Positions 11,130 to 21,498 of a stretch of DNA of 22,337 bases are shown piece by piece. How positions within the stretch are numbered: position 1 is the stretch's first letter; each line of letters opens with the position of its first letter. The notes beneath the pieces were generated by a model that had not been told where the DNA came from, did not search any database, and was given only the letters and a program-made list of their open reading frames with translations. Origin of the DNA: a virus; IMG/VR virus record IMGVR_UViG_3300009149_000316, positions 1 to 22,337 of that record. One strand, written 5' to 3'. Position numbers and translations under genes: made by a program.

Positions 11130-11132
11130 TTA
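11073..11132. repeat. AT-only short direct repeats
   Basis: AATTAAATAATTA occurs at 11073-11085 and again at 11099-11111. A diverged copy (AATTAAATAAAATTA) begins at 11118 and runs into the stop of the tape measure gene. The spacings are 26 and 19 bases. The units contain no G or C, so chance similarity in AT-rich DNA is a real alternative. Confidence 0.5.
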
Positions 11133-13706
11133 ATTTTTACCACCATTAATTACTCTAGCTGTTTCGGCATGTATCATATTTGTGATGTTTCTAATGAAAA
11201 CTGGGTCCTTAGATAGGTCAATAAGAGAATGTATTGATATGGGTTGAGTTCCGGGACTGGTTAACTTAATTTCACCACTAAATCTTATATCACCAAACTC
11301 ATGTCTCATTACTCCACCGCTATTTACAGAAGCCGAACCATTATTTTTATTATTAAATTTTGATAAAGCTTCGGCAACTGCACCTCCCGGTTTCATGGCC
11401 AATAATTCATCTTTATTATCAATTGGTGTTATTTTACCACCTTGAATAACACCATTACCTTTTGTAAAATCCTTACCTAAATTCTTTTTATTTCTAGGTA
11501 TTATTCTATTTTTTTCTTTAGGTACCACCCCGTTTTTAATCTTAGGTATTACCCCATCATTAATTGGTGAATTAAAAATAGCATCGTTTGTTGGTTGGTT
11601 AAAAGCATCACCAGCTACATTACCAAATGTACTACCAAGTAGTGCTCCACCACCAACAGCGGCAGCAGACAATGCTAATGAAGCCCCACCTGTGAATGGT
11701 GCTAAAGCCAATCCAAGTAATCCACCAGCAATAGCTCCAGCAGTCCCCCAGTTATCACCTTCCTTTGTTTCTTTATTACCAAGTTTTTTACTTATCTCTC
11801 CACCAAACCAATCACCAGCAGCCCAACCAGCAATACCAGCACCTAAAACACCAATAGATTTTGTTAAAAAACCTAACTTACCACCAAGCATATTTGTTAA
11901 ATTAGATATGGCACCTCCTTTACCAGTAGTTCCAAGATTAAAACCTTGAGCTAAAGTTATTCCATTCAGTATCCAATTCGCTTTCCCAAATAACCACCCT
12001 AAAGCTTTAAAACTTAATACTGTTGCGAGAGTACCCGTAGGTCCAAGCCAAAGACCAATTTCTGCAACTGTTTTAACAAATCCAGCTCCAAATTTGGCTA
12101 ATTCGCCAATATTTTTTCCTAATTCTTTTAATTCATTTTTAAACTTTTCATTCTTAAACAAATCTTTAATCAAAGGACCTAATACTTGGTCAATACCATC
12201 AACAATAGGTAACATTGTTGTTTTAACCATATTTATCAGATTGGTAATTTTCTCATCAAAACTAACAGCTGCTTTAGCTCTTTCAGCTAAAGTTTTTTTA
12301 TTCTGCATTTCGGATTTTATTAATTGTTGACCACTAATACCTAAATCTTTTATTAATTTTTTATCACCCTTAACATCAATAATAAATGCGTTTCCTTTTT
12401 CATCCAATTGTGCTGTATTGGTTAAAAATTCTTGCATTTCTTTTCCTTCTTCTCCACCACCAATGCTAAACGAAAGTTGTTTTTTTATTTTGGTAAATTT
12501 TGCAGCATTCTTACCAGCTTGTGCTAAATCTTCATAAGCAATACCTGTTTGTTCAGCTATTTTTCTTAATCTATGCATTTCAAGTGAAGTTATATCAAAT
12601 TCACCAGTTTTACTATTAAAAATAGCACTTGATTCAGCTGCTTTACCAATTTCTTCAGTTAAACCAGCCATATCATTTCTAGCCATATACATCAAATGAA
12701 ATGGGTCTGACATTTTAGCCCAAGACCCACCTAATACTTGTAATTGTGCTGACATTTCAACTGCACCATCAATATCAAATAACTTCTCAGCCATATTACT
12801 AGCAAAGTTCATATCAACACCTAACTTAGAAACAGTTTGAGCCATCTTAGCTAGACCTTTAACACCACCTTTGAAGTTATACTTGTTTAACATTTTCATG
12901 TTATTCTGGATGTTCTTAACTACCTTAGATGAGTTGATACCTATCTTGCTAGTATTATTTAAAGTATCTTCAATATATTTAGCAGTTCTTTCAGCTGAAT
13001 ATCCTTGTTGTTCAAATTCGGCTGTTAATTTAGCAGCACCTTCAACACCTAATGTCGTAGCAGCTGCCATTGCAGAAATAGCTTGAGTACCTTCATTACC
13101 TAATAAAACGCTTCTACCTAATTCTTCACTAAAAGAAGATTGTAATTTGGCTAACTCTTTAACACCCATTCCCCACTCATTGGTTGAAAGAGCTGTTTCT
13201 CTAATAGATGTAGATAATGTTTTAGCTCGTCCACCAAGTAAACCCATTTCCAAGCTTGATTGCTTGATGGATTTATCCATTTCAAATAATCCCCAACTTT
13301 TTAGTTTACCAAAAGAGTTTTTGAAGAAATCTGGAACTTTATGGAAATTTTTAACCATGCCAGCACCCATGCTGGTAAATGTCATTTTTAATTTTTTAGC
13401 CTCTTTAAGTTGGTCAATAAGTATTTTCTTCTGCTCTAACAACTCATCTGTTTGTGCATTTAATACTTGTAGCTTATTTTTAGCTTCTTCTAATCTGGTA
13501 GCATCACCAGCTCTCAGAGCATCAAGTATTTCTTCTTGAAATAAAAGTGCTTTCTTTTCATTATCAGCAATAGTTTTATTTAAAGCTTTAGCTTTATTTA
13601 AACCAGCAATATATGCGTCAAGCCCAGAATTTATTTCTTGTTGTGCTGCCGCTTGCTCTTTTAAAAGTCTAAGTTGTTCTTTTAATTCTTTTTTACTTAA
13701 AGCCAT
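11130..13706 (-). CDS. Tail tape measure protein
   Basis: This 858-residue protein has the architecture of a tape measure protein, which sets tail length, occupies the tube lumen and is ejected ahead of the DNA. The first ~110 residues are strongly charged and heptad-like (KKELKEQLRLLKEQ), predicting a coiled coil. The middle (~130-480) is helical and Ala/Lys-rich. Hydrophobic Gly/Ala segments, which could insert into the host inner membrane, lie at about 560-590, 615-640 and 655-700 (for example GAIAGGLLGLALAPFTGG). After them come three tandem octapeptides (DGVIPKIK, NGVVPKEK, NRIIPRNK). I see no lysozyme or peptidase motif. The ATG lies 2 bases after the stop of the upstream gene, so the pair is probably translationally coupled. 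Its position downstream of the chaperone and tube genes matches normal tail synteny. Confidence 0.85.
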   Translation of the reverse strand: MALSKKELKEQLRLLKEQAAAQQEINSGLDAYIAGLNKAKALNKTIADNEKKALLFQEEILDALRAGDATRLEEAKNKLQVLNAQTDELLEQKKILIDQLKEAKKLKMTFTSMGAGMVKNFHKVPDFFKNSFGKLKSWGLFEMDKSIKQSSLEMGLLGGRAKTLSTSIRETALSTNEWGMGVKELAKLQSSFSEELGRSVLLGNEGTQAISAMAAATTLGVEGAAKLTAEFEQQGYSAERTAKYIEDTLNNTSKIGINSSKVVKNIQNNMKMLNKYNFKGGVKGLAKMAQTVSKLGVDMNFASNMAEKLFDIDGAVEMSAQLQVLGGSWAKMSDPFHLMYMARNDMAGLTEEIGKAAESSAIFNSKTGEFDITSLEMHRLRKIAEQTGIAYEDLAQAGKNAAKFTKIKKQLSFSIGGGEEGKEMQEFLTNTAQLDEKGNAFIIDVKGDKKLIKDLGISGQQLIKSEMQNKKTLAERAKAAVSFDEKITNLINMVKTTMLPIVDGIDQVLGPLIKDLFKNEKFKNELKELGKNIGELAKFGAGFVKTVAEIGLWLGPTGTLATVLSFKALGWLFGKANWILNGITLAQGFNLGTTGKGGAISNLTNMLGGKLGFLTKSIGVLGAGIAGWAAGDWFGGEISKKLGNKETKEGDNWGTAGAIAGGLLGLALAPFTGGASLALSAAAVGGGALLGSTFGNVAGDAFNQPTNDAIFNSPINDGVIPKIKNGVVPKEKNRIIPRNKKNLGKDFTKGNGVIQGGKITPIDNKDELLAMKPGGAVAEALSKFNNKNNGSASVNSGGVMRHEFGDIRFSGEIKLTSPGTQPISIHSLIDLSKDPVFIRNITNMIHAETARVINGGKN
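11487..11558 (-). repeat. 24-bp in-frame tandem repeat in the tape measure gene
   Basis: Three consecutive 24-base units encode DGVIPKIK, NGVVPKEK and NRIIPRNK. The consensus is a polar residue, G or R, two aliphatic residues, then P-K/R-x-K. The DNA units have diverged, so the repeat is not recent. It lies just after the last hydrophobic segment of the protein. Confidence 0.7.
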
Positions 13707-15028: not shown

Positions 15029-15039
15029 CTATTAAACTA

Positions 15040-15066
15040 AAATTCCCCACTTTAGGTGGGGAATTT
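15040..15066 (-). terminator. Intrinsic terminator after the tail assembly chaperone
   Basis: AAATTCCCCAC (15040-15050) pairs perfectly with GTGGGGAATTT (15056-15066) around a TTTAG loop, giving an 11-bp stem. It adjoins the stop codon of the chaperone extension frame (15069-15067) and precedes the next gene. T-rich flanks on both sides mean it could work in either direction. Confidence 0.85.
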
Positions 15067-15345
15067 TTATGTGTTTTTTATTTCGCCAGCTTTTATTTTA
15101 TTTTTGAGTGCTTCTCCACTAACTTTTGTGGTTCTAGAACCTTTAGAATTTTTAGAAACAGCTTGTTGTTTCATCTCTTCTGCCTGTTCTTCACGCTCTC
15201 TAGCGTCTTTACTTAATAACCCTAAAAAGAATCTTCGTTCATATGTTGGCATTAACATTATATCTGAATAAGACATATTCTTCAAATGCTGAGTACAAAT
15301 GTAAATTTCTTCTAAAAGAGGTATTTTATAACTAGAGGTCAGGCC
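15067..15345 (-). CDS. Frameshift-expressed C-terminal extension of tail assembly chaperone
   Basis: This frame ends at 15067 and is open upstream into the end of the preceding chaperone gene. It contains no ATG or GTG before the codon for Met at LKNMSYSDIM. Residues PLLEEIYICTQHLKN, followed by MSYSDIMLMPTYERRFFLGLL and a charged helix (REREEQAEEMKQQ), have the look of the T part of phage G/GT chaperones and gp51-like proteins. The conserved-looking EEIY segment lies before the only possible late starts (TTG at 15285, ATG at 15276), so an independent start would remove it. I therefore annotate this as the product of frameshifting at the T7 run at 15352-15346. The fusion would be 512 residues (+1 shift) or 513 (-2 shift). 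Separate translation from the TTG or the internal ATG remains the alternative. Confidence 0.65.
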   Translation of the reverse strand, partial: GLTSSYKIPLLEEIYICTQHLKNMSYSDIMLMPTYERRFFLGLLSKDAREREEQAEEMKQQAVSKNSKGSRTTKVSGEALKNKIKAGEIKNT

Positions 15346-16606
15346 AAAAAAACCTGAGGTTAAGTGGAAGAAAGGTTTCTATGGAACCACCTCCGGGGGT
15401 TCCAACCGTGATATTCAAATCAACACCACTTTCAATTTCTTCAACATATTTAGTAAATTCTTTCCCTTCAAGTAATCTAATTGAACGAACAAATTGTCTG
15501 ATAACATTTCTATCTCTAGACCCATTAACTTCAACAATCATTCTATCTAATGAATAAATTGAAGTATTGTTAACTAAACCACCTTGTTTTGTTTCCGCAT
15601 CAACTATTTTACTTATATCATCGATATCACCACAATTTAAAAATCTAAATTTAATTTGTGTTTTAGATAATTTCATTTCATAATCAAAAAGACCTTCACT
15701 ATCAGGTTCGGCACCTAATTTTTTATAATTTAGATTATTCAAATCGATATCTATATCAAATGGTTCATCTTTTTCATCCAACATTGTAACTGGATACATT
15801 TCACCATAACCTGTAGCTCTTAACCAAATCATTATAGCATTTCTATCTCCAACATGTAAGTCTCTATATCTTAACCCTTCTTCGAGTAATTTTCTATTTA
15901 TTAAAATTTCTAAAAACTCACCGCTTTCTAATAGATTAGGACTTGTAAGTATATTTTCATCAGAAGTAGTCATATAAGATAATCTTACCGATGGTTTTTT
16001 ATTTTTATATATTTTACCTTCAGATGGTAAAGGTATCACATCAAATGGTGAATTATAATTAGGCTGACTCAAACTAACTATATTTGGGTCGATACTTGAT
16101 GGGTTTTTACCAAACGACTCAATGTTTTTAGCGATAGGCTCTCTAAATGGTTCTGGTTCTCTTTCTTGCATATTTTTTGGTTTTATTTCTTCTAATGGTA
16201 ATTCTCTATTCATAGCATCATCTAATTGTTTTTGATACTTCTCAATCATAATTTTATTTCTTTCCAGTTGTTGGTCACGAAGGTCTAGCTGATTTTGGCT
16301 ATGATTTTCTGTTGCTTTACCATAAGAAATAACTGCTTGTTTTTCTATTTGTTTTTCTGCGAATTCGGATTCTATTACAACACCACTTTCATCACGCATT
16401 CTTAATTGTTCTTCGGTTCTTTTTTTCATTTGCTCAAGAGCACTAAGTTGTCCTGTTGGCAAATCATCAGAAGATGATTTTTCAAAAACTTCTCTTGTTA
16501 TTAGTTTTGTTTCTTCATCGTACTTTTCTGAACCATAGGTTGCAAAATTTTCATCGTTTGGTTTTTTACTTCCAGAATTTGGAAATACGTTTGGTTTTTT
16601 ATCCAT
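15332..16606 (-). CDS. Tail assembly chaperone, gp26-like (G-type product)
   Basis: This 424-residue protein has a charged, probably disordered or coiled-coil N-terminal half (~1-185; for example LRDQQLERNKIMIEKYQKQL). The C-terminal domain from about residue 190 begins FDVIPLPSEGKIYKNKKPSV and continues MTTSDENILTSPNLL, a segment seen in T4 gp26-like proteins (T4_baseplate family). The protein ends LRFFWPDL, a typical terminus for the family. T4 gp26 is ~208 residues, so the N-terminal half here is additional. Such proteins act as assembly factors binding the tape measure protein before tube polymerisation. The gene lies between tube and tape measure, the usual location for G/GT chaperones, and its last codons contain a T7 run leading to the extension frame described separately. 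Regulation is probably through its own TATTTATT motif at 16643-16636. Confidence 0.75.
   Translation of the reverse strand: MDKKPNVFPNSGSKKPNDENFATYGSEKYDEETKLITREVFEKSSSDDLPTGQLSALEQMKKRTEEQLRMRDESGVVIESEFAEKQIEKQAVISYGKATENHSQNQLDLRDQQLERNKIMIEKYQKQLDDAMNRELPLEEIKPKNMQEREPEPFREPIAKNIESFGKNPSSIDPNIVSLSQPNYNSPFDVIPLPSEGKIYKNKKPSVRLSYMTTSDENILTSPNLLESGEFLEILINRKLLEEGLRYRDLHVGDRNAIMIWLRATGYGEMYPVTMLDEKDEPFDIDIDLNNLNYKKLGAEPDSEGLFDYEMKLSKTQIKFRFLNCGDIDDISKIVDAETKQGGLVNNTSIYSLDRMIVEVNGSRDRNVIRQFVRSIRLLEGKEFTKYVEEIESGVDLNITVGTPGGGSIETFLPLNLRFFWPDL
15346..15352 (-). promoter_or_regulatory. Candidate programmed frameshift site (T7 run)
   Basis: On the coding strand AGG-TTT-TTT-TGG ends the zero frame nine bases before the last sense codons and TAG stop. 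After decoding the two Phe codons, a -2 slip or a +1 slip on the T7 run keeps the Phe tRNA paired with TTT. Either slip enters the frame GGC-CTG-ACC that is open to 15067. A -1 slip gives TTG-GCC-TGA and stops at once. Confidence 0.6.
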
Positions 16607-16686: not shown

Positions 16687-16710
16687 AAAAACCACCCATA
16701 GGTGGTTTTT
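16687..16710 (-). terminator. Intrinsic terminator after tail tube / 36-residue gene
   Basis: On the coding strand AAAAACCACC pairs with GGTGGTTTTT around a four-base loop (10-bp stem), followed by a T-rich tract continuing TTATTTTATTTTT. It begins 3 bases after the stop codon of the 36-residue gene and would end the tail tube transcript. Confidence 0.85.
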
Positions 16711-16834: not shown

Positions 16835-17323
16835 TTAGAAAAGTAATATAGCTCTATCGAATCTTAATGTTGCTGTTATTTCAGCCACACCATCATCATC
16901 CATAGACAAATCACCAAAACCAACATTAGTTAACATAGTTCCATCTAATAACCATTTTTCAATAACAACACCAGTTGGGTCAAGCATTTCTAACTCTACT
17001 GGTCTTTTATAACCAGCAGCATAACCTTGACGACCAGTAATTGATTCAGAGTGAAGACGAACCCATTCCATAATTGCTTGTGCAGCAGATGGACCGATTG
17101 GGTCACGGAAAGTAACATCAATAGCATCCCAAGTAAAACGACCAATAACCCATGTTGATGTGTTCAAGAATTGAATTTCTACTTCATTTTGAGCTATTGA
17201 TGGTCTTGAAGCAGATGATAACCACCATTGTTGAATCCCCAAATCAGCTGGGAAAGTAATTAACCAACGATTCTTTTTCTTAGGTTCGTATGGTAAGGGC
17301 ATTTTCATTAATAAATCAGCCAT
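16835..17323 (-). CDS. Tail tube protein (T4 gp19-like)
   Basis: This 162-residue protein is essentially the length of T4 gp19 (163 residues). It begins MADLLMKMPLPYEPKKKNRW and continues with WLITFP, VIGRFTWDAIDVTFRDP, a helix containing AAQAIMEWVRLHSES, and a final β-strand EITATLRFDRA, the order expected of the gp19 fold. The protein stacks in hexameric rings to form the inner conduit for DNA, inside the sheath. Adjacent genes (sheath upstream, chaperone and tape measure downstream) match tail synteny. The leader of ~107 bases contains a TATTTATT motif and a TATAAT box, in keeping with high expression. A 36-residue gene and a terminator follow. Confidence 0.9.
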   Translation of the reverse strand: MADLLMKMPLPYEPKKKNRWLITFPADLGIQQWWLSSASRPSIAQNEVEIQFLNTSTWVIGRFTWDAIDVTFRDPIGPSAAQAIMEWVRLHSESITGRQGYAAGYKRPVELEMLDPTGVVIEKWLLDGTMLTNVGFGDLSMDDDGVAEITATLRFDRAILLF

Positions 17324-18648: not shown

Positions 18649-21498
18649 TTAGATATTATCGAATGAAGCACCAGTATTCATTATCACAAATTCAACTTGA
18701 ATAAATTCTAATGCTCTAGTTGGTTTCAAGAATATTTGACCAGTTAATTGATTTCTATCAATATCTTCTGGGTCTCTTGACAGAACTACACGGAAGTCAG
18801 TTAAACCTCTTTCACTTCTTATGTTATCCAATATTGGGTTAACAAGTGCTAAGAATTGATTTCTAACAACAGAGTCGTTTTGTTCGAATAACAATCTAAT
18901 AGATACAGCTGAAATAAGTTTTCTAGCTTGTAATAGAAGTCTTCTAACATTGATTCTATTAAGAGCTGTATCTTTAACTTGAAGAGTTTTATTACCCCAA
19001 ATTTTAATACCATCAGATGTGAAAGTAGCAATTGGGTTAATTCTGTTTTCATAAAGAAGGTCTCTATCAGCCAATGTAAGTTTCTTACGAGCTTGAATAG
19101 CATCAACATCACCACGTTGGATACCAGCAACGGCAAACCAAGGGAATGAAATGTTATCAGTCAACGCAATATTTCTAACAACATCTCTTGTCGGTGGAAC
19201 GTATATTAACACATTATTTTCAGCATCATTAATTTGAACCCAAGGCCAGTAAGTACAAGAGTAATTACTATCAAATTGGTCAGTTAATTGGTCCACAACA
19301 TCTTCAATTTCTAATAGTTCTCCACTAGAAGTATCTGGCATTGTCATGATATATAATGAGTCAGCCCTATCTTGTTCAATCATTTCGATTGAAGCTTCAA
19401 TTAAGTTTGTGTTGTCAAAGTCATCAATTCCCGGAGTTGCAAACACATTTATATTCACTGCTTCTGGATTTTTAAACGTCCAAATAGCTTCCAAATATGC
19501 GTAGTAATCCGAATTGATACCTAAATCGCCATTGGTAAGAGTTTTATTAACAAACGCACCACTTGTTAATCCAGCAGCACCAGCTGTACCATTGATAATA
19601 AAATTATCAAGGTTACTTCTTCTAGTTCTGTATATGTCCCATCCATCGAAACCACCATATGGTGCAAACGTAAATTTACGAGCATAAAGTTTTTCATATG
19701 GTCCGTTTAATAAACCAGCATCTGTTCTAAATTCCCAATCTCCAGTATCAAATAAGAATATTGGGTTATAAGTAGTTCCGCTATTGTTTATAACAACTGA
19801 TACGTTATCAATTGTAGCCCCAGTAGCATCGATATCCATGTGGAAACCGTTTGTTAATCCAGTCCATTCATTTGGTGTTGATGTTTTTGGAACACCTTTA
19901 TAGTCGAAGAAATCAGAGTCGATACCAATAGTCTCAGAAAGACCTAAATAATATTTACGCTTGTTTTCAAATGCACCATAAGTTTGCTTATACATTAAAT
20001 TAGGGTTAACTACTGAAGTATTACTATTTGTTTGGTAATCACGAATAGGGAAACCAATGAAACCAGCTGGAAAAGTATCTGAAGTATCAGATGTCTCGTC
20101 ACATTCAACAAGTACATATGAAGACTTAGAAACGTAAACCCCATCAAGAGTACCTATTCTTCTACCAATAAAATTAGCTGAAGTTGGGTCCATAGTACAA
20201 CGAGAAAAACTTTCAAGAATTGTTGGTTGTGCGTCTGTATCATAAAAACTTCTAATTCTAACATCAAATTCTTTAGAATCTGGTTTAATGTTAACAATTG
20301 AAATTTTAAATTGTTCGTTAGCAGCATTACCATCTGAAATTGTGTGTAATCTAAACAATCTAATAACTTTATTACCACGTAATTCTGAAACCACGTAAGG
20401 TGTAACTGCTGGTTGGAATTGTTGTAGGTAATCTGAATAATCATCTGCATAACTAATCAAAGATTGTTTTATACCACGAACCTTATCATCAGCATTAAGT
20501 GTTTTAAATAAATTTCCGTATAGTTCTTCAACAAATAATGCTGTCTTACCATCTTGCGCTGTTCTTCCTAATACTTTAGGTAGATAATTTTTTTGAGTTC
20601 TATCTAAAGATAATTGATAATTGAAAGCACCTTGTAAAGTTGAAACTCCACTCAATGAGAAGACACCTAACGGATTGCTTGTAGCACCAGAATATGCTGG
20701 GTCAAAAGCAACATTAGTTGTACCACTTACTTCGAAAGAAGGTAACTGATTTGATGAATTTATTGTTCCTCTAGAACGTAACAATGCAACTAGTTTATTT
20801 TCAACATCAGTATATGCCGTACCAGAATAGCTAATAGTAATACCAGTTGTTGTACCAGTATTATATATACCATCATTTCCAGTCTCTGTAACATATAAAT
20901 TAAATGAAGAACCAGTAAATATGTTTCCTGATTTAGAATAAGTAGCTGTAATGTCAACACTAGAACCAGTTGTTGCTGTTCCTAAATAAGCAAGTTTAGC
21001 TAATAATTCTGGACCAGCAACTGAATCACCTAATAAGCTTGTTACCAATGAATCAGATGAGCTAACACTAACCAATGTACCACCAGTTGTTGCTGAATAA
21101 GTAATCAAAGGAGAATAAGTCGTTCCAGTATTTGTTGTAGCAACAGTAGATGAATCTAAAGCTCCATCAAGTGTTATACCCCAAGCCAAACCACCATAGT
21201 AACCAGAAAACCCCAATACTCTTGTTACGAATAATTGGTTAGACTGAGAAAGATACGATTTAGCGATATAAGGTAATTCATATTTAGGAGCACCAGTATC
21301 TTTTATTTTAGTAGCATTTAATCCACCAAAAAAAGATTGGAATTCACCATAGTTACTTATAAAGATAGGTTGAAACGCTGGACCTATAGTCGTCTCACCA
21401 ACCAATCCAAGTGTTGTTACACCTACTTGACGTGTAACGAATGTTAAGTCTTTTTCTGAGGTATAGACACCCGGACTTACGAATACTTTTGTTGCCAT
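18649..21498 (-). CDS. Tail sheath protein (T4 gp18-like)
   Basis: This 949-residue protein forms the contractile outer tail cylinder. The N-terminus (TKVFVSPGVYTSEKDL, then VGVTTLGLVGETTIGPAF and a YGEFQSFFGG segment) and the C-terminal domain (from about residue 800: SDGIKIWGNKTL, INVRRLLLQARKLI, RGLTDFRVVL, FIQVEFVI) are characteristic of phage sheath proteins. T4 gp18 is 659 residues. The surplus lies mainly at ~105-300, a Ser/Thr/Gly-rich, β-type stretch that probably forms an extra surface domain. The start is the ATG at 21498, after the A/T-rich leader ATTAAATAATATG and without Shine-Dalgarno. The gene probably forms its own transcription unit, with a TATTTATA motif upstream and a strong terminator downstream. 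Confidence 0.92.
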   Translation of the reverse strand: MATKVFVSPGVYTSEKDLTFVTRQVGVTTLGLVGETTIGPAFQPIFISNYGEFQSFFGGLNATKIKDTGAPKYELPYIAKSYLSQSNQLFVTRVLGFSGYYGGLAWGITLDGALDSSTVATTNTGTTYSPLITYSATTGGTLVSVSSSDSLVTSLLGDSVAGPELLAKLAYLGTATTGSSVDITATYSKSGNIFTGSSFNLYVTETGNDGIYNTGTTTGITISYSGTAYTDVENKLVALLRSRGTINSSNQLPSFEVSGTTNVAFDPAYSGATSNPLGVFSLSGVSTLQGAFNYQLSLDRTQKNYLPKVLGRTAQDGKTALFVEELYGNLFKTLNADDKVRGIKQSLISYADDYSDYLQQFQPAVTPYVVSELRGNKVIRLFRLHTISDGNAANEQFKISIVNIKPDSKEFDVRIRSFYDTDAQPTILESFSRCTMDPTSANFIGRRIGTLDGVYVSKSSYVLVECDETSDTSDTFPAGFIGFPIRDYQTNSNTSVVNPNLMYKQTYGAFENKRKYYLGLSETIGIDSDFFDYKGVPKTSTPNEWTGLTNGFHMDIDATGATIDNVSVVINNSGTTYNPIFLFDTGDWEFRTDAGLLNGPYEKLYARKFTFAPYGGFDGWDIYRTRRSNLDNFIINGTAGAAGLTSGAFVNKTLTNGDLGINSDYYAYLEAIWTFKNPEAVNINVFATPGIDDFDNTNLIEASIEMIEQDRADSLYIMTMPDTSSGELLEIEDVVDQLTDQFDSNYSCTYWPWVQINDAENNVLIYVPPTRDVVRNIALTDNISFPWFAVAGIQRGDVDAIQARKKLTLADRDLLYENRINPIATFTSDGIKIWGNKTLQVKDTALNRINVRRLLLQARKLISAVSIRLLFEQNDSVVRNQFLALVNPILDNIRSERGLTDFRVVLSRDPEDIDRNQLTGQIFLKPTRALEFIQVEFVIMNTGASFDNI

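Follow-up and report, generated by a model that had tools for sequence, protein, structure and literature searches.

The locus described here raises the question of how a second reading frame without an evident start of its own is translated behind a gp26-like gene. The window, by which the whole analysed stretch of 22,337 nucleotides is meant (IMG/VR record IMGVR_UViG_3300009149_000316), carries both frames on its minus strand, and they are called G and T below (Table 1). The zero-frame end of G reads AAC CTC AGG TTT TTT TGG CCT GAC CTC TAG, with a T7 run at 15352-15346 and the TAG at 15334-15332. The second frame, which is reached by a shift of +1 or -2, is open from 15378 to a TAA at 15069-15067 and encodes FFGLTSSYKIPLLEEIYICTQHLKNMSYSDIMLMPTYERRFFLGLL..., a short helical domain whose conserved beginning, FFGLT, is positioned at the shift site itself. 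Inspection of the window sequence revealed no ATG, GTG or TTG in this frame ahead of the TTG at 15285, and the -1 frame of G closes at once with a TGA at 15341-15339. The initial annotation had described G as ending in an overlapping, offset frame with no ATG or GTG before its conserved part and with a near-immediate stop in the -1 frame; these coordinates and the frame logic hold, except that the upstream TAG, placed there at about 15386, lies at 15381-15379.

Table 1. Features of the G-T locus and its surroundings in the window.
Feature	Position	Strand	Basis or remark
G part: gp26-like ORF (phrog_150), 424 aa and stop	15332..16606	-	ORF and profile match
Putative shift site TTT TTT TGG	15344..15352	-	P-site UUU (codon 1 or 2), new-frame GGC next
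T part after +1 shift (FFGLTSSYK...LEEIY...MPTYERRFF...), 94 codons and stop	15067..15351	-	frame open from 15378
TAG before the site, closing the +1 frame	15379..15381	-	sequence
24-nt segment before the site, strongly constrained at synonymous positions in the window's clade (CTT CCN CTT AAC NTC)	15353..15376	-	candidate stimulator, mode unknown
GGAGGTGG, Shine-Dalgarno-like	15387..15394	-	largely explained by Gly-rich peptide
Tail tube protein gene (gp19-like), directly upstream of G	16835..17323	-	
Candidate tape measure gene, downstream	11130..13706	-	weak similarity to immuto tape measure protein
Inverted repeat that includes the final base of the T stop codon	15039..15067	-	listed as terminator-like on the + strand

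Comparison of the 61 sequences of the window's clade showed that T is a coding frame. No stop was present in 5143 codons of the T frame versus 631 in the zero frame and 438 in the -1 frame, an openness far beyond chance. The aggregate, uncorrected pN/pS of T in this clade was approximately 0.46, and the sequence data establish purifying selection on T. A frameshift of the G/GT type calls for an overlapping second frame that is conserved as coding without its own start, and this criterion is satisfied.

A search of viral contigs and isolate phages yielded 309 junctions, 190 of them distinct. The T frame was found at +1/-2 in 184 of the 190, and a slip site UUU-Y (or CUU-U) was located at the same F-F/L codons in every one of these 184, so both the wide conservation of the offset and the UUU-Y rule can be read directly from the sequences. 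The sites were TTT TTT TGG (139; also the site of all 61 sequences in the window's clade), TTT CTT TGG (25), TTC TTT TGG (7), TTT CTA TGG (3), CTT TTT TGG (3) and TTT TTT TAC (2), with single occurrences of TTT CTT TAC, TTT CTA TTC, TTC TTT CGT, TTT TTT CAC and TTT TTT AGT. Isolates with this arrangement include Mel-JY01, Flavobacterium immuto, Rhodothermus RM378, Bacillus SP-15, Listeria LIS04 and Streptococcus GXN1. No relative was present in a collection of genomes with one entry per species. An alignment of relatives had been suggested at the outset as a check of the frame offset and the T run, and the offset passed it. For the T7 run the result was divided: a slip site stands at the same F-F/L codons, but an intact run is not essential, as TTTCTTT (26), TTCTTTT (7), TTTCTAT (4) and TTCTTTC (1) occur with the same offset.

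These broken runs also bear on slippage of RNA polymerase, which on a homopolymer such as the T7 run present in most sites could produce a mixed mRNA population. The offset is kept in dozens of sequences where the run is interrupted, and in some where the T runs are just 3-4 long, which makes this explanation very improbable. An insertion or deletion introduced by sequencing or assembly into the homopolymer of a truly continuous gene can practically be dismissed: the same offset was present in more than 180 distinct contigs and several finished isolate genomes, and the zero-frame codons and stop of G are conserved as well. One contig (L078) resembles an in-frame fusion, yet it carries several indels. 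As a candidate for a genuine in-frame G-T fusion this indel-rich contig was rejected.

Where the frame changes could be narrowed down from the stops. In 18 distinct sequences just 2 nt separate a +1-frame stop from codon 1, and in some junctions the zero-frame stop is as near as +15, so that the switch is confined to about 17 nt in which no start codon is found. The direction had been left open between +1 and -2 by the initial annotation. Full +1 re-pairing in the P site at codon 1 or codon 2 is possible at 184 of 184 sites, so the requirement that every site permit it is met. Phage Mu is known for -2 shifts (PMC5009743), and a ribosomal shift like the one proposed there would have tRNA-Phe on the second TTT re-pair two bases back within the T7 run, giving Phe-Phe-Phe-Gly-Leu; this is formally possible at 172 of the 184 sites, the window included. 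The corresponding requirement is not met, since full -2 re-pairing is forbidden at the remaining 12, namely TTC TTT (n=8, from two lineages) and TTT CTA (n=4, L006 and the immuto group), all of which keep the same offset. With 12 sites forbidding -2 and none requiring it, the shift is best read as +1, the direction that would explain every member, and -2 is considered improbable. The original offset thus stands, and of its two directions the relatives favour +1. As the sites of the window's own clade are all identical, the choice can only be made via relatives, and for the phage of the window itself the +1 direction is inferred through homology. The slipping codon seems to depend on the lineage, being codon 2 in TTC TTT and codon 1 in TTT CTA. 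Sites with CTT were dropped as evidence excluding -2; they do not discriminate, because the Leu anticodon GAG can pair with UUC through G-U. Just 2% of the sequences in the window's clade have T at position -1, directly ahead of the T run, so that the -1 heptamer U UUU UUU is avoided.

If T were translated as a separate protein, whether from a start codon of its own or through reinitiation behind the G stop, no shift would be needed. In 53 of 184 junctions an in-frame ATG precedes the site, so that T could be initiated separately in some of them. There is also a Shine-Dalgarno-like stretch upstream, and the annotated start of the cyanophage gp51 is an ATG that lies 5 nt beyond the beginning of the G stop. 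However, 61 of the 184, the window among them, lack any T-frame ATG, GTG or TTG up to and including the site, 18 of the 184 have a stop just 5' of it, and the conserved FFGLT start of T coincides with it. A separate downstream T gene with its own ATG had been named beforehand as the finding that would refute a shift. Only two relatives (L305 and L310) carry T as such an ORF, and in both the slip codon TTT has become TTC, a loss that is expected if TTT serves only for shifting. They can be regarded as a natural control, and separate expression of T in general remains quite improbable.

The reading preferred here is a pair of tail assembly chaperones encoded at this locus and made via a +1 shift, to which we assign a probability of roughly 0.85 in the absence of protein or reporter data. 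There is thereby strong support for the earlier proposal of a programmed shift that fuses G-like and T-like parts of a tail chaperone, and for its conservation, while the actual shifting of ribosomes and its efficiency are inferred. Most ribosomes would terminate at the end of the gp26-like ORF and produce G. A minority would slip by +1 with peptidyl-tRNA-Phe on a UUU of TTT TTT TGG and re-pair on the next UUU, after which GGC (Gly) would be taken in and the T frame read, giving a G-T fusion (...LRFF-GLTSSYK...). By analogy with lambda, G may coat the tape measure protein and T may recruit tube subunits.

The G part could be assigned to the T4 gp26 family on the basis of profile searches. G of the window matched phrog_150 (baseplate hub), the PHROG of T4 gp26, with an E-value of 4.9e-5; this profile matched 45 of 48 G members (best 2.9e-31), and T4 gp26 itself at 6.7e-71, while the Pfam family T4_baseplate matched 31 of the 48 aligned G relatives. 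Comparison of the G alignment with the single T4 gp26 sequence was weak (E 0.033), and the link therefore rests on the PHROG and Pfam profiles. The conserved domain starts at about residue 185; in the window's clade an additional N-terminal region, about 180 aa long, precedes it. The predicted structure of G (pLDDT 82.9) was closest in BFVD to phage hub chaperones, including the SP-15 protein and entries named 'baseplate hub assembly protein, bacteriophage T4-like'. Among 945 solved chains, the HK97 tail assembly chaperone 2ob9 was the best match to the G model (Z 5.2, 93 residues, 4.3 A), which is weak alone, as Z scores under 8 are common, and is only suggestive. The T model gave no significant fold match.

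The gene order may correspond to that of lambda, where a short G and a frameshifted G-T likewise follow the major tail or tube gene and lie upstream of the tape measure gene (PMC5009743). In the window the tube gene, G and T are followed by one unknown gene and then by the weakly similar tape measure candidate; in immuto and SP-15 an annotated tape measure gene follows. By this analogy the locus would work like lambda G/GT, although the chaperone function itself is inferred. Lambda differs in shifting by -1 (PMC5009743), whereas the locus in the window appears to shift by +1 at UUU-Y with a G of the T4 gp26 family. Terminator-like inverted repeats at 15039-15067 and 16687-16710 flank the G-T unit. 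The tail sheath ORF (18649-21498, 949 aa) has its sheath domains confined to the last third. No Rfam families or tRNAs were found in the window.

The T4 family has been described as lacking a G-T frameshift, and a +1 shift in tail chaperones was proposed earlier for HSTV-2 (PMC5009743). What is new here is a putative frameshift in a family described as without one, and one that is unusual in being read as +1 at a sense codon. The arrangement extends beyond the relatives with the +1 offset. In cyanophages S-PM2 and P-SSM2, Pelagibacter phage HTVC008M, KVP40 and Cr30 (a set comprising L351, L352, L353, L354, L355 and L356-L435), a T frame also overlaps the end of G, again at the Phe-Phe codons, but the phrog_150/phrog_634 match continues in the -1 frame, exactly at the canonical heptamer T TTT TTC/T. 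TTTTTTC was kept in 35 of 35 distinct relatives of P-SSM2, and the cyanophage-type sites differ from the window also by a Shine-Dalgarno-like GGAGGG element about 9-16 nt upstream of the heptamer. An ATG just after the G stop makes separate initiation of T possible at these loci. We know of no experimental test of a -1 shift in the cyanophages, HTVC008M, KVP40 or Cr30. In PA5oct (L319), Atu_ph07 (L318) and LR756511 (L293), T was found in the -1 frame at the same T TTT TTC heptamer, which indicates that the direction of the shift has changed within the family. The protein tree of G requires at least two such changes, which is uncertain owing to long branches.

T4 itself carries no frameshift here; its hub assembly chaperones gp26 and gp51 are encoded by two separate, divergently oriented genes (NC_000866 115802-117228, L294). 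On their sequences gp26 and gp51 are paralogs, being mutually similar with an E-value of 2e-6; gp26 covers phrog_150 positions 14-235 (G only), while gp51 covers 13-280, that is G and T in one frame. The T profile matched the C-terminal part of gp51 (221-247) with 44% identity over 27 residues, a weak result (hhalign E 0.014, probability only 3%), and a curator's note on KVP40 already likens its short ORF to the C-terminus of gp51. This suggests, as an inference from sequence, that T4 swapped frameshifting for gene duplication, with gp26 as G and gp51 as G-T, and the two hub chaperones of T4 resemble the products without and with the fusion, each given a gene of its own. With slightly better than even confidence, we propose that the T4 superfamily was ancestrally frameshifted and contains a +1 branch (relatives of the window, Mel-JY01, immuto, RM378, SP-15 and GXN1) with a sense-codon shift at UUU-Y, a -1 branch (cyanophages, KVP40, Cr30 and others) with U UUU UUC at the same Phe-Phe codons, and T4, in which the gene would have been duplicated into gp26 and gp51. 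A literature search on gp51 or hub-assembly frameshifts, which did not cover subscription papers, returned nothing relevant. T4-related phages show the G-T frameshift arrangement by the hundred, in two directions and at the same codons, and gp26 and gp51, long 'hub chaperones' of unclear role, would gain a concrete function that can be tested.

What could drive a +1 shift at a sense codon was considered from the surroundings of the site. The simplest candidate is slow decoding of the rare UGG in the A site, which accounts for 0.5% of codons; TAC, CGT, CAC and AGT also occur at this position. Within the constrained 24-nt segment that precedes the site, CTT is used for the two Leu codons in 100% and 93% of the sequences of the window's clade compared to a background of 16%, and CTC is present at -6 in 25% of this clade, though it is nearly absent elsewhere. 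Elements similar to the Shine-Dalgarno-like stretch, with strong anti-SD complementarity, were found about 20-45 nt upstream of the site in the main clades. Synonymous-codon resampling produced an equally strong element in 14% of resamples for the window clade, 25% for the immuto clade, 4% for Mel and 0.7% for L295; as most of the complementarity survives resampling in the window and immuto clades, the element is only suggestive. UGG, the constrained 24 nt and the Shine-Dalgarno-like stretch are all possible stimulators, none of them established. In the 61 window-clade sequences RNAalifold detected no conserved structure, either within the site or in its surroundings (best column-shuffle z about -2); the lack of a stimulatory structure and the sense codon in the A site both speak against the preferred reading.

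The influenza PA-X site UUU CGU, where Phe tRNA slips from UUU to UUC by +1, is shared by GXN1 as UUU CGU C, although the system of the window would use a bacterial ribosome and lies in another gene. The prfB frameshift (CUU UGA C; PMC10885494) is also a +1 slip in the P site on a pyrimidine codon followed by U, and the site of the immuto group, CUU UGG C, departs from it in a single base. The site in the window differs in having the sense codon UGG instead of a stop in the A site and no Shine-Dalgarno sequence 3 nt upstream. The relatives of the window provide a natural series of putative +1 sites with a sense A-site codon, a resource for studying how +1 slippage is driven. In L295-L301 a five-codon ORF of the +1 frame is opened by GGAGGTGG-ATG, and the TAG that closes it stands 2 nt ahead of the shift site.
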